Shown: positions 372-32,393 of the stretch, in pieces | Layout of the letters: each line of letters starts with the position of its first letter | Position numbering within the stretch: position 1 is the first letter of the stretch | Virus record (IMG/VR): IMGVR_UViG_3300028392_000020 | Coordinates: 1-32,393 of that record | Reading direction: 5' to 3' (one strand) | DNA length: 32,393 nucleotides | From: a virus | Notes under the pieces: model-generated | Database searches by the model: none | Seen by the model: only the letters and a program-made list of their open reading frames with translations | Told to the model about the DNA's origin: nothing | Translations under genes and position numbers: made by a program

Positions 372-1424
372 ACGGCAGGCGGCGCTGGCGCTGCTGGAAT
401 GGGCGGTGGCACAGGGCTAACTGCTGGATTAAATACGGGCCTTACTGGAGGCTTAACAACTGGCGGCGCTGGTCTTGCCTCAATGGGTGGTGGCACGGGA
501 CTAACTGCTGGATTGAATACTGGTCTTGCCGCTGGTGGTGCATTAACTGCTGGAGGGGCTGGTCTTGCTTCAATGGGCGGCGGTACAGGTCTTACAACAG
601 CAGCCGCTGGCGGTGGCACTTTAGGCGCTGGTGGCGTTACTGGCGCAGGAACGGCACTTGGAAGCGGTGTTGGCTCGGCACTTACTGGAGCAGGCGCTGG
701 CGCATCAAGTCTTGTTCAACAACTGCAAGCAGCAACTGGTCTATCAGGCCCGCAACTTGCCGCTTTGTTAAGCGGAGGCGTGGGCGCAGCAAATGCCGCT
801 AATTTGTCAAGCGCAATTAATACTGGATTAGATGCAACGATTGCAGCAAATACGGCATCGCAAGGCACGTTGAAGGACATTTACAACCAGCAATTAGGGT
901 TCCAAAAACCTTATCAACAAACTGGTTTGACTGGTCTAAATCAACTGGGTCAACTTGCAGATACGGGTTATTTGACTCATCAATTTAATGCTCAAGACCT
1001 TGCTGGTGGACTTGCACCTAACTACGACTTTATGCTCCAACAAGGGCAGATGGCAAACCAACGTGCAGCAAACGTAGGCGGTGGCGCGTTGTCAGGCAAT
1101 ACACTACAAGGATTGCAACAATATACGCAAAACTATGCAGGCAACGCATATCAAAATGCGTTTAACAATTACCAATCGCAGCGTAACAACATTTATACAA
1201 ACTTGGCAAACATGGCTGGAATTGGTCAGACTGCAAATACAGGCGCACAAGCCGCTGGTACTGCTTACGGCAAAGGCACAACAGACTTGCAAACCGCATT
1301 GGCTAACGCTCAAGCCGCAGCCGCAGTCGGTAAGGCACAAGCATTGGCAGGAGGAACGTCAGGTGTAGCAAACTCTACGTTCCTTGCCTCTTTGCTTGGA
1401 CAAACCGGCACAGTTCCTCAATAA
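1..1424 (+). CDS. C-terminal part of giant repeat-rich ejection (gp7-position) protein
   Basis: The frame is open from base 3 (473 codons here) with no convincing start; the TTG at 69 lies inside a repeat. It continues the frame of 29271-32393 across the circle junction, giving about 1480 aa. Order: 75-bp units encoding GTTAAGTGL, GTTAAGTGL, GTTGAGL (to base 371); a second repeat family around the motifs LTAGGAG and SMGGGTGL (about 369-600); then a non-repetitive C-terminal domain from about base 705. That domain has Gln/Asn/Tyr-rich helices and motifs such as PYQQTGLTGLNQLG, PNYDFMLQQGQMANQRAA and NIYTNLANMAGIGQ, of the kind seen in phage DNA-transfer/internal virion proteins. The gene lies directly before two more candidate ejection proteins, the place of gene 7 in P22. 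The role in DNA ejection is inferred from that domain and synteny; the repeat function is unknown. Confidence 0.8.
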   Translation, partial: TAAGTGLGTTAAGTGLGTTGAGLGTTAAGTGLGTTAAGTGLGTTGAGLGTTAAGTGLGTTAAGTGLGTTGAGLGTTAAGTGLGTTAAGTGLGATGAGLGTTAAGTGLGTTAAGTGLGATGAGLTAGGAGAAGMGGGTGLTAGLNTGLTGGLTTGGAGLASMGGGTGLTAGLNTGLAAGGALTAGGAGLASMGGGTGLTTAAAGGGTLGAGGVTGAGTALGSGVGSALTGAGAGASSLVQQLQAATGLSGPQLAALLSGGVGAANAANLSSAINTGLDATIAANTASQGTLKDIYNQQLGFQKPYQQTGLTGLNQLGQLADTGYLTHQFNAQDLAGGLAPNYDFMLQQGQMANQRAANVGGGALSGNTLQGLQQYTQNYAGNAYQNAFNNYQSQRNNIYTNLANMAGIGQTANTGAQAAGTAYGKGTTDLQTALANAQAAAAVGKAQALAGGTSGVANSTFLASLLGQTGTVPQ

Positions 1425-1433
1425 GGATTAGAC

Positions 1434-2783
1434 ATGGCAGACTATTTCACAGGCTACACAAACCTTGCTACTCCGCAAACGTCCCTTGCGGATATGATGA
1501 ATTTGGCATCGGGTGTTCAACAATACCAGCAAGCGCAGCAAATTAATCCTTTGTTGTTGCAACAGCGTCAACTTGAGTTAAAAAAAGCGCAAGAAACTTA
1601 CGCTCCTGACATAGCCCGAAATCTTGCAGAGTCTCAACGCGCACAGACAGAAGCCGGTGTTTCTGCTGGTACTGCTCAGCCGCGAATAAGCGCCGCAACA
1701 AGTGAAGCAAACATTAAAAATATTCAAAAGTTACAAGCATTTCAATCTAATGCTGCGCGTCAATTGCTTGGTCTTGCAACTAAAAAAGACCTTACGGCTC
1801 AAGACATTGAAGATTCCATGACCAAAACCCTAAAGGATAGCGGTGCTGGTGATGATGCAATTAAGCAATCAATGGCGCAAATTCCTAAAGGTGGATCGCC
1901 TGCTGAACTGCAATTATGGGTTGGTCGTAATGGTTTGCAATCGTTAGAGGCATCGGCTCACTTAGATCGTTTGTATCCATCAACTCAAATGGTATCTACG
2001 GGCGCAGGAACTATGCCCGTGACTACCGGCAGCGCACTTGCCGCCCAAACCCCAGGCCAGCAAGCAGGCCCAATGACAGAAGCGCAATTACCGCCCACAA
2101 CGCCTGTTGTTGGCCCAACTGGTGCATCTACCTATCTTGGCCCAGCATCACAGCGTCCGCAAGGCCCAATCCAAGCTGGTATTGGCCCTGCTGCTGGTGC
2201 TTTGCAAACAAACCTTGGTTCAACTTTGGGCGCAGATTGGACTGCAACATCACAAAAAGCAAGTGAAGCGCCTCAGAAAATTGCAATTTACCAAAATATC
2301 AAAAAACTTATTCCAGAATCGTATACGGGCGCATTGTCTGAAAAGAAACAATTTGCTGCCAATCTTGCTCAATCTTTGGGAATTGATTACAACGTATTGG
2401 AAAGTTCTTCTACGGACGAATTGGCAAAGAACACCAAACTTTTGCAACTTGCTGGCGGCAATACAGATGCTGCCCGTGGCTTGGCTGAACTTGCAAGCCC
2501 CAACACCAAGATGACCAAAGAAGGTATGGTGCGCGTTACTAATCAATTGATTGGTCAAGAGCAATATAACGCTGCCAAAGCCAACTTTATGCAAGCGGCT
2601 ACTGGCGACCCTGCTGCATATCAAAACAAACTCTTACAATGGCAAAATGCTGCTGACCCACGTTTCTTCCAAGAAATGTCGCAAGTGGACGCGCAAAAGA
2701 TGATGCAAGCAATGAGCCCTGCGGAACTTGCTGCGCTGCGTCAAAAACGTGCATTGGCTAAACAACTTGGGATTATTCGATAA
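1434..2783 (+). CDS. putative ejection/internal virion protein (P22 gp20 position), 449 aa
   Basis: The start ATG follows AAGGATTAGAC, a strong ribosome site nearly the same as that of the giant gene at 29271. The N-terminal 100 residues are Gln/Ala-rich and helical (runs such as QQYQQAQQINPLLLQQRQLEL). A Pro/Gly/Thr-rich low-complexity stretch follows at about residues 180-260, then a helical C-terminal half ending in LAALRQKRALAKQLG. No signal peptide, membrane segment or enzymatic motif is visible. It overlaps the next gene by one base (TAATG). The size (449 aa) is close to P22 gp20 (471 aa), and it is the middle of three large genes between the tail accessory genes and the fibre, as gp7-gp20-gp16 are in P22. 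Function is inferred from order and composition, not from a recognised domain. Confidence 0.7.
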   Translation: MADYFTGYTNLATPQTSLADMMNLASGVQQYQQAQQINPLLLQQRQLELKKAQETYAPDIARNLAESQRAQTEAGVSAGTAQPRISAATSEANIKNIQKLQAFQSNAARQLLGLATKKDLTAQDIEDSMTKTLKDSGAGDDAIKQSMAQIPKGGSPAELQLWVGRNGLQSLEASAHLDRLYPSTQMVSTGAGTMPVTTGSALAAQTPGQQAGPMTEAQLPPTTPVVGPTGASTYLGPASQRPQGPIQAGIGPAAGALQTNLGSTLGADWTATSQKASEAPQKIAIYQNIKKLIPESYTGALSEKKQFAANLAQSLGIDYNVLESSSTDELAKNTKLLQLAGGNTDAARGLAELASPNTKMTKEGMVRVTNQLIGQEQYNAAKANFMQAATGDPAAYQNKLLQWQNAADPRFFQEMSQVDAQKMMQAMSPAELAALRQKRALAKQLGIIR

Positions 2784-4957
2784 TGCCTACATTTGCCGAT
2801 TTCCTTGATTCAAGCCAGCCAAGTGCTGCGCCTAATTCTGCGCCGCCTGCAAAAAAAGGTGGTCAGTTAACCAAAGAGGCAATCCTTGGTTATAACGACC
2901 TTGCGGAAAGATTGAGGCAATTTCAATCAGTCACAAAAGACATAAAGCCTGGAACTGACACATATCAAAGAAACATGGCAGACATTGCTGAAGCGCAAAA
3001 GGCAATGCAACAAGCCGGTTTATCTTCTGCGCCAGCAGCACCAGCCGCCCCGCAAACAGGTACATTCGCAGACTTTCTTGATATGCCTGCGCCTACTGGT
3101 GGCAGCGGTCGAGGCGTTCAAGGTGGCCCAACAGCAGCAGAATTGCAGGCTTATCAACCCAAGCCTCAAGGCATGGTTGCCCAAGCCTTCCAACGCGCAT
3201 TCCAAATGAAACAACGCGCACCAGGTGAGATTGCATCAATACTTGATATCCCTGGCAATATCCCTTCTGCAATTGCTGGAACAGTCGGTTATGGTGCTGG
3301 TCGTGCATTTGGCTTAAGCCCCGAGGAAGCTACCGCAGCATCCCAGCCTGTTGCTCAAGCATTGGCAAATCCTGTTGGTCGGCTTACCGGCACAGTCGGA
3401 ACGCCTGGCTATCAAGGCTCATTACCCACCCAAGCCCAGCAAGCGGTCGGCGGCGCTTTGGCCCAAGGCGCAGAGGCATTAGGCCAACGCACAGGCATTA
3501 GCCCTACCGACATTGAGCAAGGCGTTAATGCCGCAATGATGGCCCTTCCCGCGGGTATTAAGCCCGTAAAGGCAGGCGTTGCTAGGATCAAGGCGGCTTT
3601 GCCTGAGTACACCATTGAGGCGGCAACACCTGGTTCCGTTGGCGCAGCAGCAGTTCCAACTGAAACAACAATTAAGGCGGCATTGGCAAGCGCCAGCCCC
3701 GAACTGCAAAAAGCCGTTGGTAGCGTCCCTGTAAACAAAGTCAACGTGCCTGTCCTGCAACGTCACATTGAGGCAGATTCCTTGCCCGAGCCGGTGCGCC
3801 TCACCAATGGCCAGGCAACGGGTGACGTTAGCCAATTGTCTATGGAGCAAAACCGCAGAGGAGCAGACCCTGCATTGGCGGCACGTTTCAATGAACAAAA
3901 CGGACAATTGATTAAAAACATGGACGCAATCCGTGAAATGGCTGCGCCTGATGCCTATGGCACAAAAATCATTGAAAACAGTGATGAATTGATTAACACA
4001 TACAAAAAATTAGACGCTGAACGTAATACCGCAATTGACCAAAAATACAAGGCTTTGCGTGATGCTAACGGCGGTGATTTTCCTATTGATGCTGCTACTT
4101 TATTGGATAACGTAAAGGCTACGCTGAAAAAAGATTTGTTGTCCAATGACGCGCCGACAAGCCAAATGGCTGAACTTAGCCGCATGGCAGCAGAAAAATC
4201 AATGACGTTTGAAGACTATTTGAGCTTGCGCCGAAACCTTGGTGATATTGCCCGCACTAGCACGGATGGCACAACGCGCCGCGCTGCCTCTTTGATGATT
4301 CAAGAACTTGAGAATCTTCCGTTGCAAGAGGGCGCAAAGCAACTTAAACCATTGGCTGATGAAGCTAGAAACGCTGCCAAGGCTCGATTCCAAATGCTGG
4401 AGAAAGACCCTGCTTATAAAGCGGCGGTAGATGATAGCGTTGCTCCTGACAAGTTTATGGAAAAATTTGTTGTAAATGGAACGCGAGACAATGTGAAATC
4501 CATGATTGACCAATTGGGCCGTGACTCTGTTGCCCACCAGCACATGAGCGCAGGCACGTTAAATTGGTTGCGTGAAAAATCAATAGATCGTCAAGGCAAT
4601 TTTTCGCAAGCAGCGTTTAACAAAGCCCTTAATCAATTAGACAAGTCGCAAAAGCTAAACCTTGTGTTTAACCCTGACGCATCTTCTACATTGAAAACAT
4701 TGGGCAATGTGGCTCAATACACACAAGCACAGCCTAGAGGAAGTTTTGTCAATAACTCTAATACTTTAGTTGGCGCAATGGCTGAAAAAGCTGCTGGTGG
4801 ATTGGAAACTCTTGGAAACATTGGGAGCAGCAAAATAGGGTTGCCATTGGGAACAATTGTTCGCGGTCAATTTCAAAACTTAAAAGCTGCCCAGCAAACG
4901 AAAAAAGCACTTGAGCCAGCCGCTGGCGTAACATCATTAAAGGACATTGGCAAATGA
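2783..4957 (+). CDS. putative ejection/internal virion protein (P22 gp16 position), 724 aa
   Basis: The start overlaps the preceding stop by one base. The N-terminus carries the motif TFADFLD twice (residues 3-9 and about 94-100), joined by an Ala/Pro-rich linker. Residues about 140-280 are rich in Ala and Gly with weakly hydrophobic stretches (IPSAIAGTVGYGAGRAFG; NAAMMALPAGI) that might contact membrane. From about residue 320 on the protein is long, charged and helical. No lytic transglycosylase motif was recognised, unlike some internal virion proteins. It is the last of the three large proteins between the giant gene and the collar fibre. The assignment as an ejection protein is by synteny with P22 gp16 (609 aa) and by composition. 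Confidence 0.7.
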   Translation: MPTFADFLDSSQPSAAPNSAPPAKKGGQLTKEAILGYNDLAERLRQFQSVTKDIKPGTDTYQRNMADIAEAQKAMQQAGLSSAPAAPAAPQTGTFADFLDMPAPTGGSGRGVQGGPTAAELQAYQPKPQGMVAQAFQRAFQMKQRAPGEIASILDIPGNIPSAIAGTVGYGAGRAFGLSPEEATAASQPVAQALANPVGRLTGTVGTPGYQGSLPTQAQQAVGGALAQGAEALGQRTGISPTDIEQGVNAAMMALPAGIKPVKAGVARIKAALPEYTIEAATPGSVGAAAVPTETTIKAALASASPELQKAVGSVPVNKVNVPVLQRHIEADSLPEPVRLTNGQATGDVSQLSMEQNRRGADPALAARFNEQNGQLIKNMDAIREMAAPDAYGTKIIENSDELINTYKKLDAERNTAIDQKYKALRDANGGDFPIDAATLLDNVKATLKKDLLSNDAPTSQMAELSRMAAEKSMTFEDYLSLRRNLGDIARTSTDGTTRRAASLMIQELENLPLQEGAKQLKPLADEARNAAKARFQMLEKDPAYKAAVDDSVAPDKFMEKFVVNGTRDNVKSMIDQLGRDSVAHQHMSAGTLNWLREKSIDRQGNFSQAAFNKALNQLDKSQKLNLVFNPDASSTLKTLGNVAQYTQAQPRGSFVNNSNTLVGAMAEKAAGGLETLGNIGSSKIGLPLGTIVRGQFQNLKAAQQTKKALEPAAGVTSLKDIGK

Positions 4958-8592: not shown

Positions 8593-9198
8593 TTAACCTT
8601 TCATTAGTTCTGCTTGTTTCTTAATGCTGCTGCGGGTTTTGCTATCAAGCATTGCCCATAAAGCCGTCTTTTCTTCAATGTCCGTGATGCCTTGGTATTC
8701 CTCCACAGCACCAACTAGATCATTTGCGCTCATGCGTTCGTTTATGGCTGCGGCTACGTCTGCAAGGATTGACAAACGATTTTGCGGCACAAGGTCAGTT
8801 TTAGTGGCTGACACTTTAGGCGCTTGCCTAGATGCTGCGTTACCGTCATCATCTTCCGGCGCAATACCGCAAGCTGCCATCAAAGAATAGCGCCTAGCGT
8901 AAGTAAGCGCCGAGCCGTAACCTTGCGGGTCATGCTTAGCAGCAGGAACGTGCAATTTTCCGCACTCCAGCATTTCGCCCGATTCGTGAATAAAGACTGT
9001 TTCTACAGTTACGCCATGATCGTCTTCCGATGTGCGCTGGATAAGGGCTATTCCCGCGGCATTTAAGCTATCTACAACCGCCTCCACGCAACCGGCAAGG
9101 TCAACGTACTTTGACCGAAAATGCGGGTTTGTAGAAGTCTTTAAAGCCGGTGCAAAACCGCGCTGGGCTTTGACTAATGCTGATGCAATGTTTTTCAT
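8593..9198 (-). CDS. erf: ERF-family single-strand annealing protein
   Basis: This is a recombinase of the P22 Erf family, which anneals complementary single strands and in P22 promotes genome circularisation. Diagnostic segments: FRSKYVDLAGCVEAVVDSLN (residues 28-47), GIALIQRTSEDDHGVTVETV (49-68) and PQGYGSALTYARRYSL (91-106), then an acidic linker and a small C-terminal helical region. The length (201 aa) is typical. An excellent ribosome site (GGAGGTGAT) lies just before the ATG, the strongest in the operon, so expression should be high. The start overlaps the preceding stop (ATGA). A likely SSB-like partner follows. No exonuclease was identified in the operon. Confidence 0.9.
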   Translation of the reverse strand: MKNIASALVKAQRGFAPALKTSTNPHFRSKYVDLAGCVEAVVDSLNAAGIALIQRTSEDDHGVTVETVFIHESGEMLECGKLHVPAAKHDPQGYGSALTYARRYSLMAACGIAPEDDDGNAASRQAPKVSATKTDLVPQNRLSILADVAAAINERMSANDLVGAVEEYQGITDIEEKTALWAMLDSKTRSSIKKQAELMKG

Positions 9199-13372: not shown

Positions 13373-13618
13373 ATGGCTGAGAACTATTGTAGTTCATGTA
13401 TTTATTTCGTTGACCACCACATAATGGGTCAATGTAGGCGCTTTCCCACGTTCCAACACCGGCACAAGACGGAATGGTGCGGGGAATACAAAGCGCCCGT
13501 GGTTATGACCATAACGGTGACCGACGACACTTTGACGGTCACGGAAACCCCTATAAAAAAGCGCGGCAGACCGGCCCGAGTGCTTGTTCCCCTGACTGTA
13601 GAGGGGGAAACGACATGA
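13373..13618 (+). CDS. Cys4 protein with C-terminal AT-hook-like motif (81 aa)
   Basis: AAGGAGAGTTGGC precedes the ATG. Cys6, Cys9, Cys21 and Cys36 (CSSCIYF, QCRRFP, EWCGEYK) form a plausible single zinc site seen in short phage proteins. The C-terminus has KKRGRPARV (residues 62-70), matching an AT-hook core (RGRP) that enters the minor groove of AT-rich DNA. The combination suggests a small DNA-binding accessory protein. The stop overlaps the GroES start (ATGA). Confidence 0.7.
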   Translation: MAENYCSSCIYFVDHHIMGQCRRFPTFQHRHKTEWCGEYKAPVVMTITVTDDTLTVTETPIKKRGRPARVLVPLTVEGETT

Positions 13619-13875
13619 ATTTAAGCCCACTTCAAGATAGGGTTGTGGTCAAACCACAGGTCAGAAACTTATCTGATATCATTATTGTGAACAACAAAGA
13701 GCCTTTTAACGAAGGCACCATTGTTGCGGTCGGCCCTGACGTTTACGAAGTACAGGTCGGGGATTTCATTAAATACGGCAACGGCGATTACCTAAAATGG
13801 CCTACCCACAAGATTGACGGGCAGGACTACCAAGTAATCCAAGAAGCCGACATCTGCGCGGTGGTGGAAGAATGA
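13615..13875 (+). CDS. phage GroES-like co-chaperonin (Cpn10)
   Basis: The ATG at 13615 overlaps the previous stop (ATGA). The 86-aa product aligns with GroES: PLQDRVVVKP at the N-terminus, the mobile-loop region with hydrophobic IIIV (VRNLSDIIIVNNKEPFNEG), GTIVAVGPDVYEVQVGDFIK, YG, then DGQDYQVIQEADICAVVEE as the closing strand. It is a little shorter than bacterial GroES (about 95 aa). T4 gp31 and similar phage co-chaperonins replace host GroES to fold the coat protein in host GroEL. No GroEL is encoded here, so it would use the host chaperonin. It precedes the packaging and capsid genes. Confidence 0.88.
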   Translation: MNLSPLQDRVVVKPQVRNLSDIIIVNNKEPFNEGTIVAVGPDVYEVQVGDFIKYGNGDYLKWPTHKIDGQDYQVIQEADICAVVEE

Positions 13876-14145: not shown

Positions 14146-14286
14146 ATGCCACTCAAGAAATCAGCTTCTCCAAAAGCGTTCAAAGAAAACATCAAGGCCG
14201 AAGTCAAGGCCGGCAAACCCGTGAAACAGGCGGTGGCAATTGCCTATGCTGAAAAGCGGGAAGCGCAAAAGGCAAAGAAAAAGTGA
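14146..14286 (+). CDS. small basic phage protein, KQAVAIA family (46 aa)
   Basis: This 46-codon gene fills the gap between its neighbours and overlaps the next start (GTGA). The product, PLKKSASPKAFKENIKAEVK, then AGKPVKQAVAIAYAEKREAQ, matches a widespread short phage protein with the KQAVAIA motif (DUF6496-like). It is Lys/Ala-rich and probably one helix. Function unknown; such proteins often sit close to terminase genes. Confidence 0.75.
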   Translation: MPLKKSASPKAFKENIKAEVKAGKPVKQAVAIAYAEKREAQKAKKK

Positions 14287-15485
14287 AAATTACTCAAAAA
14301 AAGGTCACAGAACTAATCCCTTATGTAAACAACAGCCGCACCCACTCTGACGAACAGGTGGCTCAGATCGCGGCAAGCATTAAGGAATTTGGCTGGACTA
14401 ACCCGATATTGGTGGATGGGACAAACGGAATCATTGCAGGGCATGGCAGGCTTTTAGCCGCCCGCAAGCTGGGATATACCGAAGTGCCTACCATTGAGTT
14501 GGCAGACTTGACGGAAACCCAAAAAAAGGCATACATCATTGCCGACAACCGCTTGGCGTTGAACGCTGGGTGGGACAATGAGATGCTGACCATCGAGTTA
14601 AACGACTTGCTGGCAGACGGTTTTGCGCTCGAAATGCTGGGTTTTGACCCCAAAGAGTTAGCCGCCTTGCTTGAGCCCGAGGTAATTGAGGGATTGACGG
14701 ACGAGGATGCCGTACCCGAAGTACCCGAGGAGCCTAAAACCAAGTTGGGGGATATTTACCAGTTAGGCAATCACAGGCTGATGTGTGGGGATTCCTGCAG
14801 CCAGGAAGCGGTGGAGAAGCTGACTAACGGTGCAGGCGTGGATATGCTTTTGACAGATCCGCCTTATAACGTGGCTTATGAAGGCAAAACCAAAGAAAGC
14901 CTAACTATTCAAAACGATAGTATGGGCGATGAGCAATTTCGTCAATTTTTGCGGGATGCCTTTGTAACAGCCGACACGGTAATGAAAAAAGGCGCTGTTT
15001 TTTACATTTGGCACGCTGATTCAGAGGGATACAACTTTCGAGGCGCCTGCCATGATGCTGGATGGAAAGTGCGCCAATGCCTTATTTGGAAGAAGTCTTC
15101 TATGGTGATGGGGCGGCAAGACTATCACTGGAAGCATGAGCCTTGCCTTTATGGGTGGAAGGACGGGGCTGGCCATCTATGGGCGACAGACCGCAAACAA
15201 ACCACAATCTTGGAATTTGAGAAGCCGCACCGTAATGGTGAACACCCAACTATGAAGCCGGTGGCTTTGTTTGAGTACCAAATGCTCAATAACACTAAGG
15301 GCGGGGATATTGTGCTGGATTTGTTTGGTGGGAGCGGAACAACCATGCTGGCAGCAGAAAAGCACGGCAGGCACGGTTATTTGATGGAACTAGACCCTAA
15401 ATACTGCGATGTAATCGTAAAGCGTTGGGAAGATTTCACCGGCAAAAAAGCCGTTTTATTGACAGAATCTGCCAAAATTGCTTAA
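14283..15485 (+). CDS. ParB/Srx-like domain fused to beta-class DNA methyltransferase
   Basis: The GTG start overlaps the preceding stop. Residues 1-about 90 form a ParB/Srx-type domain (NNSRTHSDEQVAQIAASIKE, NGIIAGHGRLLAARKLG). An acidic linker follows, and the catalytic domain runs from about residue 155. DPPY at 192-195 (motif IV) precedes FGGSG at 348-352 (motif I), the beta-class order of N6-adenine or N4-cytosine methyltransferases. The end, DPKYCDVIVKRWEDFTG, is also typical. The target sequence is unknown. It is an orphan methyltransferase (no restriction nuclease seen), probably guarding phage DNA from host restriction or marking it near packaging. It lies directly before the terminase genes. 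Confidence 0.92.
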   Translation: MKITQKKVTELIPYVNNSRTHSDEQVAQIAASIKEFGWTNPILVDGTNGIIAGHGRLLAARKLGYTEVPTIELADLTETQKKAYIIADNRLALNAGWDNEMLTIELNDLLADGFALEMLGFDPKELAALLEPEVIEGLTDEDAVPEVPEEPKTKLGDIYQLGNHRLMCGDSCSQEAVEKLTNGAGVDMLLTDPPYNVAYEGKTKESLTIQNDSMGDEQFRQFLRDAFVTADTVMKKGAVFYIWHADSEGYNFRGACHDAGWKVRQCLIWKKSSMVMGRQDYHWKHEPCLYGWKDGAGHLWATDRKQTTILEFEKPHRNGEHPTMKPVALFEYQMLNNTKGGDIVLDLFGGSGTTMLAAEKHGRHGYLMELDPKYCDVIVKRWEDFTGKKAVLLTESAKIA

Positions 15486-25755: not shown

Positions 25756-26087
25756 TTGCAAAATGGAAAATTCTTGAAATTTCCGTAGAAGGCGAGGCAA
25801 TAACCCACGCCAAATATCACGTTTTGGCGACTGATGACACAAATGTAGTGGAAACTGAGGGAGATTGGCAGTTTGACAAGTTCAACGTCCAAACGCCTTA
25901 TGCTGAAGTTACAGAGCGACAAGTGATTCAATGGATCAAGGATGGAGCAACGCAATACGGGCAAAATGTAATAGAATCACGGCTAGAGGAACAATTGGCG
26001 CTTCTCAGTAAGACGAAATCTGTTGTGCCTCCGTGGAAACCGCCTGTGTTTACCTTGGAGCAACAATGGCACAGCCAATCGACATAG
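25752..26087 (+). CDS. small tail-region protein (111 aa)
   Basis: It starts in an ATGA overlap. The 111-aa product is compact and mixed alpha/beta ([60 protein letters not shown]). It resembles small conserved proteins found between phage fibre and tail genes, of unknown function. The end overlaps the next gene by 22 bases. Confidence 0.7.
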
Positions 26088-27037
26088 TATCAAGAGCATT
26101 AAAAGACATCGGCGCGTTAGAAGCCGGTGAAACGCCTACGCCCGAAGCGGCGCAAGATGCGTTTGAAATGCTTAATGATATGTTAGATCAATGGTCTAAC
26201 GAAGATATGATGGTCTACAACTTCACGGAAATTATTTTTCCCGTGGTTGGTGGACAGACCCAATACACCATTGGCCCAGGCGGGTCTGTTGGATCAAGTT
26301 TTACCGGCTCAATCACCGGCAACATCCTGACAATCACAGCTATTGCCTCGGGCGCAGTTACGTTAAACCAAACCCTATCTGGCACAGGAATTACCCCAGG
26401 CACTAGCATTGTGTCGTTTATCAGCGGCTCTGGTGGTAACGTGCTAGAGGTTGGAACGTACCAAGTCAACATTTCGCAAACGGTTGCAAGCACGACAATT
26501 ACAGGCTACTACCAAAAACCTTTGCGCGTCAATTCGTCTTTTGTACGGATTAACACAACGTCCAACGGTCAGCCAATTTATGGCGGTGGCCTTGATTACC
26601 CTATTGCTGTTCTAACCCTTGATGACTATTCTTTGATCGGACTAAAAAGTCTGAATGGCCCGTGGCCCAAGGCTTTGTATTACAACCCTGGAGATACATT
26701 GGGAAATCTGAGTGTTTGGCCTAATCCTGCCCAAGGCGAGATGCACTTGTTTACAGACACAATCTTTGCTCGATTTACCACAATGTACGACATCATGCGA
26801 ATCCCACAGGGTTACGTTAACGCGCTGCGCTGGTGTCTTGCTGAGCGCCTTATGCCTATGTATGGCAAGGCAAGCCCCGTGCAAATTGGCATGATTCAAA
26901 AGTTTGCAGGCGAAGCCAAGGCGACAATCAAACGCACCAATATGCGTCCGCAGATGGTTTCTCGCTATGCAGATGCTTTGCTAACAGGACGTTCTAAAGA
27001 CGCTGGCTGGATTTTGACCGGCGGCTTTTTGCGTTAA
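26066..27037 (+). CDS. P22 gp4-like tail accessory factor with inserted module (323 aa)
   Basis: The ATG at 26066 has GGAGC upstream; an in-frame start at 26033 lies in the previous gene. The N-terminus is typical of P22 gp4 (packaged-DNA stabilisation protein): [50 protein letters not shown]. The family core resumes at [13 protein letters not shown] and ends with [20 protein letters not shown] and [21 protein letters not shown]22 gp4 is 166 aa; the extra length here includes an inserted beta-type module at residues about 78-148. It would bind beneath the portal and, with the gp10-like protein, seal the packaged genome. Confidence 0.85.
26297..26509 (+). other. inserted beta-type module in gp4-like protein
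   Basis: Residues about 78-148 ([60 protein letters not shown]) interrupt the family core between IGPGG and KPLRVNSSF. The same pattern (FTGSI-G-LTVT-SG-L-G-GT-I-GTY-VN-SQTV) occurs twice in the next gene. Confidence 0.75.
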
Positions 27038-27046
27038 AGGACTGTC

Positions 27047-29032
27047 ATGCCCGAATTCGGATTTGTCGGCCCAAGTTACGAAGCACCCTCGATTTATCAA
27101 GAATCGCAGGAGTGCATCAACTTTTTCCCCGAAGTTGACCCGCTTAAACAAGGCGGCGTTCGGGGCGTTGTGGCGCTTTATCCAACACCAGGCTTAACCC
27201 TTGAAGCGGTGCTAAACAATGCCGAAGTGCGCGGATTGCGTACTTTGTCGGGCGGCAGTCAAATGATTGCAGTTTGCGGCTCCTACGTTTACGTTTTTAC
27301 GTCAAACCTTTCTGCCACTGTGGTCGGCATTCTTAATTCGTCTACGGGTCGTGTTGGCCTATCTGACAACGGAATTAACGCTTACATTGTGGACGGAGCC
27401 TATCGGTACACATGGCGCATTTCCAGCCCCGCAAACGCTGTTTTTACGGGCTCTATCAGCGGGACAACCCTGACTGTTACGGCAGTCAGTAGCGGCACAA
27501 TTACGGCCCACCAATCACTAACAGGCATTGGTATTACCGCAGAGACAGTGATTACGGCTTTGGGATCAGGCTCGGGTGGGGTTGGCACTTATACAGTAAA
27601 CCTTTCCCAAACCGTGTCAGCAGAAACAATGACTTCTGCTGCGGTCGGCGCTCGATTTACCGCAACCATTGCAGGAACAACGCTTACCGTTCTTTCAGTC
27701 GCAAGCGGGACTATTTACCTTGGTCAAACCCTGCAAGGCGCAGGCATTACCGCTGGCACAATTATTAAAGCATTGGGTACAGGTACGGGTGGAGCGGGGA
27801 CTTATACAATCAGCACTGCCCACACAATTGTGACTGGCATCACAATGTATGCGCTGAACTTCAGCGTTTTGCCAAGTTCAGACGGCGCTTTTAGCGGCGG
27901 CACATCGGTAGACATTGTGGACAATTACTTTGTTTACAACAACCCAGGCACTCAGCAATGGGGATCGTCTGACCTGTTAAGCCCGATTTCTTCATCTACG
28001 TCTTACGCGCTCAAAGACGGTGCGCCTGACAAACTGATCGCCCTTATTGTTGACCACCGCGAAGTTTATTTGATGGGCGAAGCATCGTCTGAAGTTTGGA
28101 CGGACGTTGGCGCAGTTCCTTTCCCTTTTCAACGTATCCCTGGAACATCTACCCAGCATGGTATTGCTGCCCAATTCTCGGTTGCCCGCCTCGGCAATTC
28201 TTTTGCCTACGTTTCCCGAAACAATCGGGGCCAAGCGCAGATTATGCAAATGGAAGGGTACATTCCCAAAAGGATATCTACCCATGCAGTCGAGAATACC
28301 TTAACAAATCAATACATTGATGACGCTATTTCGTACACTTACCAATTGGAAGGCCACGAAATTTACGTTACAACATTCCCGACTTTGAATTTGACTTGGG
28401 CTTATGACTCTACAACAACAATGTGGCATAAGTGGCTTGGCATGGCCTCTGATGGCACTTATATGCGTCATTGGAGTAATTGCGCTGCATCGTTCCAAGG
28501 CAAGGTTTTGGTTGGGGATTATTCCAACGGCAAAATCTATTCTTTAGACAAACTGAACTACACCGACAACGGAACAAATGTCCGCAGACTGCGCCGTGCG
28601 CCTCATTTGGTTACAGACTTTCAACGCCAATATTTTGATGAATTGCAGATTCAGTTTCAGCCTGGTGTTGGCACTACTGGTTTGTCTAGCCCTCAATTTT
28701 TTGTTGTTTATTTAGGTCAAAATTACACCATAACAAGCAATGGCACATTGACTATATTGCCAAACTATCAAGATGTAATTGGTCAGCCAATTGAGCCGCC
28801 AAATCCAACAACCACTTATCCCAAAGCAATGCTGCGGTGGTCTAATGATGGTGGTTCTACTTGGTCAAAAGAGTATTGGGTCAGCATTGGACAATTGGGC
28901 AAGTTTAAAAACCGTGCGATATGGCGGCGTTTGGGCATGGCCCGTGATCGAGTGTTTGAGGTTGCAGTTTCTGATCCTGTAAATGCAGTCATTGTGTCCG
29001 CTAACCTTAAAGCATCAAATGGGGAAAACTAA
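27047..29032 (+). CDS. P22 gp10-like tail accessory/DNA stabilisation protein with two inserted modules
   Basis: It encodes 661 aa, against 472 for P22 gp10. The N-terminus is family-like: [59 protein letters not shown]. Two related modules of about 65 aa (residues about 132-199 and 203-268) interrupt the core between YRYTWRI and [20 protein letters not shown]. The remaining core ([60 protein letters not shown]) is the beta-propeller-like body of this family. It would join the gp4-like ring to the tail tip. The stop overlaps the next start (TAATG). Confidence 0.85.
27440..27643 (+). other. inserted beta-type module 1 in gp10-like protein
   Basis: Residues about 132-199: [40 protein letters not shown] and [20 protein letters not shown]. 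Closely patterned on the module in the gp4-like protein. Confidence 0.75.
27653..27850 (+). other. inserted beta-type module 2 in gp10-like protein
   Basis: Residues about 203-268: [40 protein letters not shown] and [20 protein letters not shown]. It is tandem to module 1 and diverged from it. Confidence 0.75.
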
Positions 29033-29262
29033 TGGCTTTATCTAATACGCAACAGATCAATCCATACCCGCAAGCGGCGTTTTTGGATGCAAACACTAAC
29101 CGTCCCACTCGGGCATGGCAACAGTTTTTCCTTAATTTGCTTAATTTTTCAAGCGCAACCACGGCAACCGCAGGGTCAGCAACTTTGCCCGCCAACCCAG
29201 TAGGATTTATAAACGTTACCGTCAACGGCAATGCTTATAAAATTCCGTATTACAACGTCTAG
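29032..29262 (+). CDS. small tail-region protein (76 aa) at the gp26/gp14 position
   Basis: It starts in a TAATG overlap with the gp10-like gene. The 76-aa product has NPYPQAAFLDANTNRPTRAW, then QQFFLNLLNFSS, an Ala/Thr segment and GFINVTVNGNAYKIPYYNV at the end. P22 carries the tail needle gp26 (233 aa) and gp14 here; this protein is much smaller and lacks the needle coiled coil. It may be a small tail-tip or plug protein. The family is not recognised. Confidence 0.7.
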   Translation: MALSNTQQINPYPQAAFLDANTNRPTRAWQQFFLNLLNFSSATTATAGSATLPANPVGFINVTVNGNAYKIPYYNV

Positions 29263-29270
29263 GATTAGAT

Positions 29271-32200
29271 ATGGCAGTAACTAAATTATCAAATTCCGAA
29301 TTGGCCAATTTGGTCAAGCAATGGAAGCCATCTAATGAATGGGATTACGATCCAAAGAATAAGTATGCAGGCACTAACATTAGGCTTGGTGACGGAACGC
29401 TTGTTCCTTATGACGCTATTGTTCAGCAAGTTTTAGCACGATACGATCAAGACAAAAAAAATCCAACGCTTGCAGTCAAGTCAGGAATTGAACTTGGTAT
29501 TTCTGATGACATCTTAAAAACCCTTCCTGGCGTTGATGAAAACGCTTTAGCCGCTGGCAAACAATTGTTGGCAAGTGGGGCTTTTAACCCAGGCGATACA
29601 GGAGAAGGACGCGCAGGATTTGTGCAGCCTGCTGCCCCTGGCTCTGACACTTACAAAGCGCGAATGGCTGCGGGATTGGATGCTTATGGTTATCCTCCTG
29701 CGCAAGTTGAAGCATTAAGGGCATCAGGACAATATAGAGAGCCAACAACGTCACTTGCTGATATTGCTCAAGCAGCACCAGCAGCAGCCGTACCCGCCGC
29801 CGGTACAACTCCGCTGTCTAACATTACTCAAGCAGCCGCCCCCGCCGCACTCGCTGCGCAAAAACAATATACAGATGCAGAAATCATAAATGCAATTAAG
29901 GGCTCAAGGGAGCAAGGTTTTAATGACCAACAAATTATTCAAGGTGCACAAGCTAATTTTGGATTGTCAGCGGATCGCATAAATTCTTTAATTAAAACGG
30001 TTCCTGCCCCACAAGCTGCAGCACCAGCAGCAGCAGCCTCCAACGCCGGTACAACTCCGCTGTCTGACATTACGCAATCATCGCCATTGGCTCCTGTTTT
30101 ACGTCCAAATCAGCCAACGCCTATTCCTACGCCTATTCCTACGCCTATTCCTGCGCCTATTTCTACGCCTATTTTTACGCCTATTCCTACGCCTATTTCT
30201 ACGCCTATTCCTACGCCTATTCTTACGCCAACGCCCGTTGCGCAAAAACAATATACAGATGCAGAAATCATAAATGCAATTAATGGTTCAAGGGAGCAAG
30301 GTTTTAATGACCAGCAAATTATTCAAGGTGCACAAGCTAATTTTGGATTGTCAGCGGATCGCATAAATTCTTTAATTAAAACGGTTCCTGCTGCACAAGC
30401 TGCTGCGCCAGCCGCTGCACAAACTGCCGCACAAGGCCCAGCAGTAAAAGACGCATCAGGCAACATTATTGGCTATCAATCAACACAAGGCGCTCCTGGC
30501 GCAATACAAGTGCAAACAGGGCAAAATAGAGATGGCCCTGTATACAGTTATTTAACTCCCCCAAGTGGGCAATACGCAACTCGATTGCAAACGGGTACTG
30601 ATCGCAATGGAAACCCAATTTATAGCGATCAAATGGTCATTACGCCCCAAGCGCAACAAGCGCAAGGGCAAGCCGCAGCATCAAGTTTTGTTGAGCCTGA
30701 TTGGGTAAAAAATGCCAAACAAACTATTGGCACGGGTGTAGAGCCTGTATATCCAACAAAAACAGGTCGAGACGGAAGTGTTATTCAAGACACAAGCCAA
30801 GCGCCTGTTGGGTATCGTTACGACAACGGACAAAGCCAATACGTTTACCTTGATTTAGCGGGAAAACCTACGGGAGCCGTAGAAAGCCGTGGTAGTGGCA
30901 TTGGCTCAAGCATATTGGACATTGGTAAAACGCTTGCGCCAATAGGTTTGGCAATGTTAGGCGCTAACTTTCTTGCTCCTGCGCTTGGCGAATTATTTGG
31001 TGGCGTTGCTGCTGATTTAGGTGGTGGTGCTGGCACATCATTAAACGAAATGATTGCATCAGGTCTTGCACCTGGATCGGCTGGTGCTGCTGGTGCTGCT
31101 GCTGGCGCATTAACTCCCGAGGCACTTGCTGCTGCTGCTGGCACAACTGCCGGAGGAGCAGGATTACTAAGTACTGAAGCTGCAGACGCTGTTAGAAATT
31201 TAAATATTAGTGCAACTTCTGCGCCAACAGGCGCTTTAAACCAATCAATTGCTGCTGGAACATTTACGCCTGGCTCGATTGCAGATATTGCCGCAGCAAA
31301 TGGATTAACAACAGATCAACTTGTTTCTGCTGTAAATGCAAATCTTGCGGCTGCTGGCAGTGCTGGAACAACATTGGCAGATTTGGCTGCAGCAGGAACT
31401 CCTGGAGCAGGGACAGTAAGCCCTGGAGCAATAAATCAAGCTGTTGCAGCGGGAACATTTACCCCAGGTGCGCTTGCAGATGTTGCGGCGGCTAATGGGC
31501 TTACAACAGATCAACTTGTTTCTGCCCTTTCTTCTTCTGGCGCACTTAATGCTGCTGCTGGAACAACATTAGCGGATTTAGCGGCAGCAGGAACGACTCA
31601 ATTAACTCCTGCGGCAATTGATTCTCTTACAGGAACTGCTGGTTACGGAACTAATGCTTCTGCAGTACAAGCCGCAATTGATGCTGGGATTAATCCCGCA
31701 ATTGTAGGTTCTGGCGCTTTGGGCACTACTGCTGATTTGTTGGCTGGAACAACAGGCGCAGTCGGAGCAACTCCTGGGGCAGCATCAGTAAATGAAATGA
31801 TTGCATCTGGCATGAGCCCAGGTTCTGCTGGCGCTGCTGGTGCTGCTTCTGGCGCTTTGACGGGCGCAGGACTTGCTGCTGCTGGTGGAACAGGACTTGC
31901 AGACCTTGCTGGCTTGGGTACAACTCAGTTAACTCCTGCTGCAATTGAATCTTTATCAGGAACTGCAGGATATGGGACTAACGCTTCTGCGTTACAAGCA
32001 GCAATTGATGCAGGCATTAACCCTGCAATTGTTGGCTCTGGAGCAGGCTTATCGGTTGCTGACTTGCTCGCTGGTACTACAGGCGCTGGTGCAGGATTAA
32101 CTCCCGCCGCAGCATCAGTAAATGAAATGGTTGCTTCAGGATTGGCCCCTGGCTCTGTTGGTGCGGCTGGCGCTGCAACAGGAGCATTGACAGGATTGGG

Positions 32201-32393
32201 TCTTGCTGGTGCGGCTGGAACTGGATTAGCTGATCTTGCTGCCTTAGGTACAGGTGCAGGCTTGGGTGCTGCTGGAACTGGTTTAGGCACTACTGCTGCT
32301 GGAACTGGTTTAGGCACTACTGCTGCTGGAACTGGTTTAGGAACAACCGGCGCAGGCTTGGGAACTACTGCTGCTGGAACTGGTTTAGGCACT
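29271..32393 (+). CDS. N-terminal part of giant repeat-rich ejection protein (runs off window end)
   Basis: The frame is open from the ATG at 29271 (site AGGATTAGAT) to the last base (1041 codons) without a stop. Across the junction it joins 1-1424 in the same frame, about 1480 aa in all. Order: a unique N-terminal domain (residues 1-185; LSNSELANLVKQWKPSNEWD); two near-identical copies of a 50-aa helical domain (YTDAEIINAIKGSREQGFND) at about 196-245 and 324-373 separated by a TPIP repeat linker; a Gly/Tyr-rich stretch; a hydrophobic segment at about 543-580 (LAPIGLAMLGANFLAPALGE); then Ala/Gly/Thr repeat families up to the 75-bp array. Candidate membrane-crossing ejection protein at the P22 gp7 position. 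Confidence 0.85.
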   Translation, partial: MAVTKLSNSELANLVKQWKPSNEWDYDPKNKYAGTNIRLGDGTLVPYDAIVQQVLARYDQDKKNPTLAVKSGIELGISDDILKTLPGVDENALAAGKQLLASGAFNPGDTGEGRAGFVQPAAPGSDTYKARMAAGLDAYGYPPAQVEALRASGQYREPTTSLADIAQAAPAAAVPAAGTTPLSNITQAAAPAALAAQKQYTDAEIINAIKGSREQGFNDQQIIQGAQANFGLSADRINSLIKTVPAPQAAAPAAAASNAGTTPLSDITQSSPLAPVLRPNQPTPIPTPIPTPIPAPISTPIFTPIPTPISTPIPTPILTPTPVAQKQYTDAEIINAINGSREQGFNDQQIIQGAQANFGLSADRINSLIKTVPAAQAAAPAAAQTAAQGPAVKDASGNIIGYQSTQGAPGAIQVQTGQNRDGPVYSYLTPPSGQYATRLQTGTDRNGNPIYSDQMVITPQAQQAQGQAAASSFVEPDWVKNAKQTIGTGVEPVYPTKTGRDGSVIQDTSQAPVGYRYDNGQSQYVYLDLAGKPTGAVESRGSGIGSSILDIGKTLAPIGLAMLGANFLAPALGELFGGVAADLGGGAGTSLNEMIASGLAPGSAGAAGAAAGALTPEALAAAAGTTAGGAGLLSTEAADAVRNLNISATSAPTGALNQSIAAGTFTPGSIADIAAANGLTTDQLVSAVNANLAAAGSAGTTLADLAAAGTPGAGTVSPGAINQAVAAGTFTPGALADVAAANGLTTDQLVSALSSSGALNAAAGTTLADLAAAGTTQLTPAAIDSLTGTAGYGTNASAVQAAIDAGINPAIVGSGALGTTADLLAGTTGAVGATPGAASVNEMIASGMSPGSAGAAGAASGALTGAGLAAAGGTGLADLAGLGTTQLTPAAIESLSGTAGYGTNASALQAAIDAGINPAIVGSGAGLSVADLLAGTTGAGAGLTPAAASVNEMVASGLAPGSVGAAGAATGALTGLGLAGAAGTGLADLAALGTGAGLGAAGTGLGTTAAGTGLGTTAAGTGLGTTGAGLGTTAAGTGLGT
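29856..30006 (+). repeat. duplicated 50-aa domain, copy 1
   Basis: This about 151-base segment recurs 384 bases downstream (30240-30390) with only a few base changes. It encodes AQKQYTDAEIINAIKGSREQ and GFNDQQIIQGAQANFGLSAD, then RINSLIKTV. Confidence 0.93.
30117..30224 (+). repeat. 12-bp tandem repeat encoding TPIP linker
   Basis: Nine 12-base copies of ACGCCTATTCCT with single-base variants encode Thr-Pro-Ile-Pro repeats (variants TPIS, TPIF, TPIL, APIS). This should be a stiff, extended proline-rich linker between the duplicated domains. Confidence 0.95.
30240..30390 (+). repeat. duplicated 50-aa domain, copy 2
   Basis: Second copy of 29856-30006, differing at a few bases (for example AAGGGC to AATGGT). 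The high DNA identity points to a recent duplication. Confidence 0.93.
31018..32280 (+). repeat. diverged long Ala/Gly/Thr repeats within the giant gene
   Basis: Several older repeat families are visible. AAGTFTPG then ADIAAANGLTTDQLVSAV (about 31252-31335) recurs at about 31447-31530. A longer unit starting TQLTPAAIDSLTGTAGYGTN and running through INPAIVGSGA and SVNEMIASGMSPGSAGAAGA (about 31596-31850) recurs at about 31926-32180, with a partial third copy at about 31045-31110. They are more diverged than the 75-bp array. Confidence 0.8.
32286..32393 (+). repeat. 75-bp coding tandem repeat array (right part)
   Basis: One full 75-bp unit (32286-32360) and part of the next. A shortened unit stands before it. 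The last 104 bases equal bases 1-104, so this part overlaps the left array when the sequence is circularised. Confidence 0.93.

Follow-up and report, generated by a model that had tools for sequence, protein, structure and literature searches.

A gene split across the ends of an uncultured freshwater phage contig encodes a probable giant, modular ejection protein of the P22 gp7 type

The window analyzed here, the whole 32,393-nucleotide stretch of IMG/VR contig IMGVR_UViG_3300028392_000020, carries a single gene, about 1,480 codons long, that the contig ends cut in two, and its product is probably a giant, modular ejection protein of the P22 gp7 type whose long N-terminal extension would act in the DNA conduit as an ejected arm. 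The first part of the gene is a plus-strand frame (29271–32393; codons 1–1041) with an ATG start, located 8 bp past the stop of a 76-aa ORF and with an AGGA just 5′, which stays open for 1,041 codons to the final base. A second plus-strand frame of 473 codons (3–1424; codons 1008–1480 plus stop) is open from base 3 of the contig to the stop at 1424. The first 104 bases of the contig (1–104) are an exact copy of its last 104 (32290–32393), and removing one copy leaves a circle of 32,289 bp, divisible by 3, on which both end frames fuse in phase into a stop-free product of 1,480 aa. The initial annotation had described two open end frames, their in-phase join, a share of about 14% of the genome and the largest protein of the phage. 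Our ORF check bore out each of these points: the joined gene measures 4,443 bp and takes up 13.8% of the circle, followed in length by an ORF for 724 aa. The initial annotation also forecast that a linear annotation would miss both halves or mis-start the second at an internal TTG; gene callers in which genes may run off a contig end would instead give two partial genes.

A chance open frame was ruled out by frame length, codon-position bias and dN/dS. In random sequences of the same dinucleotide content as the contig, the longest open frame averaged 187 codons and never exceeded 300. The third-position GC content is 0.18–0.33 throughout the gene, on either side of the junction, compared to 0.485 for the entire contig, and conserved segments compared in the frame of the gene yielded dN/dS values of 0.10–0.29, likewise on both sides. 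We regard the two end frames as one gene, confirmed as such.

The exact length of this gene is a separate matter. The junction falls within plus-strand tandem repeats of 75 bp (25 codons) that encode Gly, Ala, Thr and Leu (1–370; 4.9 copies with 99% match by TRF); the array continues from the opposite end of the contig (32267–32393), where a 27-bp sub-unit is found. Overlaying the two contig ends gives a perfect match over either 29 bp or 104 bp, a difference of one 75-bp unit, and the contig is therefore compatible with more than one number of units. The 104-base overlap invoked in the initial annotation is thus exact and in phase, as claimed, but it falls within the tandem array and leaves the end overlap ambiguous by steps of 25 codons; 1,480 aa is the as-assembled length. 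Since the overlap belongs to the array, we read it as an assembly overlap and not as a genome terminus; the analysis gave no support for a true terminal repeat. The array is likely the reason why the contig breaks there. Every tandem period called by TRF in the gene (9, 12, 27, 48, 75 and 84 bp) is a multiple of three. An exact 34-mer search for a same-species contig over the 3′ side of the array returned no match.

To place the gene among its relatives, we searched IMG/VR with the C-terminal region, which identified 277 relatives, and kept the best 80 of the 277. Most kept relatives that reach far enough upstream share one gene order, consisting of a gp10-like gene, the 76-aa ORF and a single ORF ending in the same C-terminal core, usually followed in continuous DNA by homologues of the 449-aa and 724-aa ORFs that lie downstream in the contig. 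These neighbors flank an unbroken ORF with the same C-terminal domain in dozens of contigs from related freshwater phages, and in the closest relatives this ORF starts about 12 bp beyond the final sense codon of the 76-aa ORF, like the frame from 29271. One relative, L082, is 99.9% identical across 9.6 kb, remains open over the first part of the gene, and runs beyond the last base of the contig into the array without a stop. Relative to the contig, it has one 195-bp unit perfectly duplicated in tandem (+65 codons) and lacks one 27-bp unit (−9 codons), and near-identical strains therefore vary by in-frame repeat changes. In another relative, L005, the N-terminal module and the core again lie between these neighbors, in a frame broken by frameshifts that look like sequencing error because its gp10-like gene and 76-aa ORF are also hit.

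These comparisons bear on whether the halves could come from different genes or phages that meet merely through a similar end repeat. The position of the junction within a tandem array and the two equally exact overlaps would allow for such an assembly artefact. Against it, both flanks are syntenic around a single ORF in dozens of contigs, L082 passes the junction into the same array, the coding frame and codon bias are continuous over the junction, and L005, though frameshifted, links the N-terminal module to the core. We rejected the joining of different genes via a shared repeat on the basis of synteny and L082, and consider such an artefact highly improbable. The proposal in the initial annotation that one gene had been split by the contig ends is upheld by the same two lines of evidence, which, as judged from the sequence comparisons, give gene continuity stronger support than the end overlap does.

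The C-terminal part of the protein (residues 1216–1480; 627–1421, plus strand) forms the gp7-type core. It matches PHROG 598 (DNA ejection) at residues 1263–1466, with E = 1.3e-15 when the 473-aa frame is used as the query and 3.7e-17 when 240 aa are used, consistent with the conserved C-terminal DNA-transfer-type domain predicted earlier, which maps to the ~240 C-terminal residues. An alignment of 63 sequences contains 35 invariant core columns. P22 gp7 matches the same profile at 2e-95, as does gp29 of Rhodoferax phage P26218, and a profile-profile comparison of the core family with a set of the P26218, Manatee Spring phage ctn9Y15 and P22 gp7 proteins gave a probability of 99.9%. When P22 gp7 alone was compared to the core family profile by hhalign, the result was non-significant, and the link between the core and P22 gp7 therefore runs via PHROG 598 and short homologues. 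Structure prediction for the core reached only a low confidence (pLDDT 48.6). Judged by these profile matches, the C-terminal domain is a PHROG 598 member and the whole protein an extended variant.

Gene order is consistent with this assignment. The contig encodes a P22-type portal (profile match 1.5e-176), and the core gene is located, as in P22, between a gp10-like gene and two large ORFs. Upstream lie the gene of the head-closure protein (gp10/Hc3-like; 27047–29032, plus strand; phrog_578, 6.3e-90) and the 76-aa ORF (29032–29262, plus strand), which is conserved by synteny in relatives. Downstream, a 449-aa ORF (1434–2783, plus strand) and a 724-aa ORF (2783–4957, plus strand) are syntenic in relatives and were placed, mainly by position, as P22 genes 20 and 16; the former has a weak, composition-biased profile match to P26218 gp28 and the latter a weak match to P22 gp16 (16.9 bits). 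The adaptor-like gene at 26033–27037 and the head-closure-like gene at 27047–29032, both on the plus strand, contain a common domain with about 48% identity in relatives; this repeated domain has the same PHROG matches in both genes, also to tail-fibre families.

The contig core and P22 gp7 thus share a profile family and a place after a gp10-type gene and before two ejection-gene positions, in line with the gp7 position and the 229-aa P22 protein cited in the initial annotation. In contrast to the ~1,480-aa contig protein, P22 gp7 is devoid of N-terminal modules or repeats, and whereas genes 26 and 14 separate genes 10 and 7 in P22, the contig has only the 76-aa ORF there. The closest relative with a known cultured host, within the phage records that the core matched, is P26218 gp29 (246 aa, DNA ejection; 41% identity over 66 residues), from a phage of a freshwater betaproteobacterial host with a similar gene order around gp29. 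P26218 gp29 lacks the extension, and a 291-aa tail-fibre-type gene lies directly upstream of it. Relatives with a short gp7 usually carry such an added gene, of about 120–290 aa and of tail-fibre type in P26218 and ctn9Y15, directly upstream; it is absent at this place in the contig. We rejected a simple fusion with this small gene as the origin of the extension, since no similarity was found between the small gene and any extension.

Elsewhere in the window, a plus-strand gene at 13474–13875 encodes a chaperonin-10 (GroES-type) domain, a phage-encoded co-chaperonin (Pfam Cpn10, E = 2.4e-9), and a second at 14283–15485, 5′ of the terminase, fuses a ParB-like N-terminal domain to an N6/N4 DNA methylase. 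An ERF-family single-strand annealing protein is encoded on the minus strand (8593–9198), with the structural genes on the plus strand. A search of genome contigs found matches only in one contig of an uncultured betaproteobacterial MAG and in two contigs of Pseudomonadota MAGs; the betaproteobacterial match, together with P26218 (Rhodoferax), suggests a host among the Betaproteobacteria.

Within the N-terminal extension of ~1,215 residues, a number of small folded modules are combined with a single hydrophobic segment and with Gly/Ala/Thr repeats that span ~600 residues; all are encoded on the plus strand. It begins with a module predicted to be folded (residues 1–160; 29271–29750), which is also found in L005 and has a dN/dS of about 0.15 in L084–L086. 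A three-helix module follows in two copies. The first (residues ~199–243; 29865–29999; pLDDT ~90) has homologues in L084 and L170, and the second (residues ~327–371; 30249–30383), a predicted three-helix module as well, belongs to a 184-bp near-copy of the first with 94.6% identity; between them, a 12-bp repeat array (30117–30229; 9.4 copies by TRF) encodes a Thr-Pro-Ile-Pro linker. Residues 388–540 (30432–30890) hold a beta-rich stretch and an EPxWV...GYRYDNGxSQYV module (pLDDT 82–93 at residues 471–540) that is common to up to 16–20 family members and occurs in proteins without a gp7 core as well. The hydrophobic segment (residues 554–576; 30930–30998), with its conserved GANFLxPAL motif, is the only one in the whole protein to pass the Kyte-Doolittle hydropathy threshold. 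Long-period degenerate Ala/Gly-rich repeats (31200–32266), which include the 195-bp unit tandemly duplicated in frame in L082, precede the junction, and beyond the 75-bp array lies an 84-bp (28-codon) repeat (365–527; 1.9 copies by TRF).

A model of residues 1–1041 shows confident small domains (pLDDT 80–93) with disordered stretches between them, and the ~600-residue Ala/Gly/Thr-rich string carries very little charge. L002, L003, L006, L008 and L012, all among the closest relatives, have a Pro-rich linker in place of the repeat string. The modules and the hydrophobic segment are under purifying selection (dN/dS 0.15–0.29). The initial annotation had proposed more than 1,000 residues of repeats; the protein is indeed extended by more than 1,000 residues, but only about half of these are repeats, and residues 1–540 are largely conserved modules, predicted to be folded and shared with other phages. 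A PHROG search with residues 1–1041 and a tblastn search of annotated phages with residues 1–571 gave no match, a Pfam search of the extension nothing above the cut-off, and PDB sequence and fold searches of the modules no known fold, with nothing below E = 0.45 in the fold search. Assignment of the extension to a tail-fibre, needle or tape-measure family was rejected, as PHROG, Pfam and the PDB sequence and fold searches offered no match. A fold search of a viral library returned one match below 0.001, to an uncharacterized uncultured-phage protein (E = 2.3e-9).

Parts of the extension also occur apart from the core. L084, which has a different gp10-like protein, carries a separate 1,084-aa ORF shortly after the gp10-like gene; this ORF lacks the gp7 core and is 62% identical to the extension over residues 6–192 and 39% over residues 377–645. 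In L178 and L184, the EPxWV...GYRYDNG module has its own gene, complete with Ala/Gly repeats, directly 5′ of a DNA-ejection protein of PHROG 4287, a family other than that of the contig core; the cassette is not fused to this PHROG 4287 protein. In L176, the EPxWV module is fused to a region that constitutes the next gene in L175 and that matches no named PHROG family. The occurrence of the cassette as a fusion in some phages and as a neighboring gene in others suggests a role shared with the ejection proteins. Another giant in a similar gene place, the 1,196-aa protein of L172 (L172:5812–9402), has an EPxWV module and many ITDSxLPVxAxVG...VTITGxRG repeats and is followed by a separate 376-aa gene. 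It is conceivable, though we advance it only tentatively, that freshwater podophages use an exchangeable ejection-associated cassette, fused or adjacent to different ejection families, as an ejected arm tunable by recombination. If so, docking domains on a length-variable repeat string would adapt the trans-envelope conduit to the host envelope.

The extended form is not restricted to the contig. The 82 distinct complete core-bearing proteins fall into two size classes: 14 measure 246–289 aa and one 305 aa, while the other 67 span 423–1,018 aa, and the 1,480-aa protein is longer than all of them; core homologues in the annotated phage records inspected range from 228 to 352 aa. By these sequence comparisons, an extended gp7 is typical of an uncultured freshwater group and not unique to this contig. 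A size of 1,480 aa lies outside the 181–240 aa, with less than 30% variation, given in a review for the gp14/gp7 class (PMC8954989), a range that describes the class and is not a membership criterion. Our search of the literature turned up no paper on freshwater-phage ejection proteins that contain repeats, and we found a comparable size and mosaic build described nowhere for the gp7 class.

Known systems offer a framework for what such a protein may do. P22 gp7 is packaged in the head in about 12 copies and is needed for DNA delivery; it is apparently the primary portal binder and is required for efficient gp20 packaging (PMC4992974). T7 gp14, the outer-membrane component of the ejectosome, spans the outer membrane (PMC11784390); a review treats it as the counterpart of P22 gp7 and first small ejection protein of the cassette, and it is through this description that the 196-aa T7 protein is likened to the ~1,480-aa contig protein. 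By analogy with P22, the core would hold the protein near the portal within the head and help load other ejection proteins (PMC4992974), and, as in P22 and T7, the protein may exit with or before the DNA and contribute to an outer-membrane conduit (PMC11784390). With its small domains strung along an extended, flexible and almost uncharged chain, the extension could thread the narrow portal channel and, once ejected, form an arm of the trans-envelope conduit that acts as a tether or lining over the outer membrane and periplasm. The hydrophobic segment may provide a membrane contact and the small modules docking sites, with recombination between repeats altering the length of the extension.

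In our analysis, an ejected flexible arm is the most likely role of the extension, ahead of two others. Several observations do not sit easily with it, including the modules without a known fold, the low-confidence core model (pLDDT 48.6) and the non-significant hhalign result with P22 gp7 alone. Moreover, only one segment passes the hydropathy threshold, whereas four or five membrane helices are reported for the gp14-like proteins of T7-type phages. P22 gp7 itself is annotated as losing its first 20 N-terminal residues to a host protease, which counts against an ejected arm and at the same time lends some weight to a cleaved pro-region or packaging signal, one that helps load the ejection proteins and is cut off no later than during assembly, leaving the core alone to be ejected. 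The strong conservation of the core, next to an extension that varies greatly in length and sequence, would also fit a pro-region. We nevertheless hold this to be unlikely: the modules and hydrophobic segment are maintained by purifying selection (dN/dS 0.15–0.29), 1,200 residues are a large cost for a 32-kb genome, and module genes stand as separate proteins beside other ejection proteins.

No more probable, in our view, is exposure of the extension at the tail tip as a needle, plug or adhesin that replaces the small gene between gp10 and gp7, with repeat variation reflecting host-range or surface variation. Such a replacement would be in keeping with the 120–290 aa gene of short-gp7 phages, of tail-fibre type in P26218 and ctn9Y15, and with its absence from the contig, where the gene begins 8 bp past the 76-aa ORF. 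The extension, however, has no tail-fibre, needle or adhesin profile match, and the small gene shares no similarity with any extension.

Together, these data caution that a break at a coding repeat can conceal the largest gene of a contig, as here, where the contig ends cut the gene in two. The gp7/gp14 type has been described as the most size-conserved ejection protein, a rule from which the uncultured group departs by a factor of about two to six. Its N-terminal arm, modular and variable between strains, would present a testable case in which short-tailed phages could adapt their DNA conduit to differing cell envelopes.
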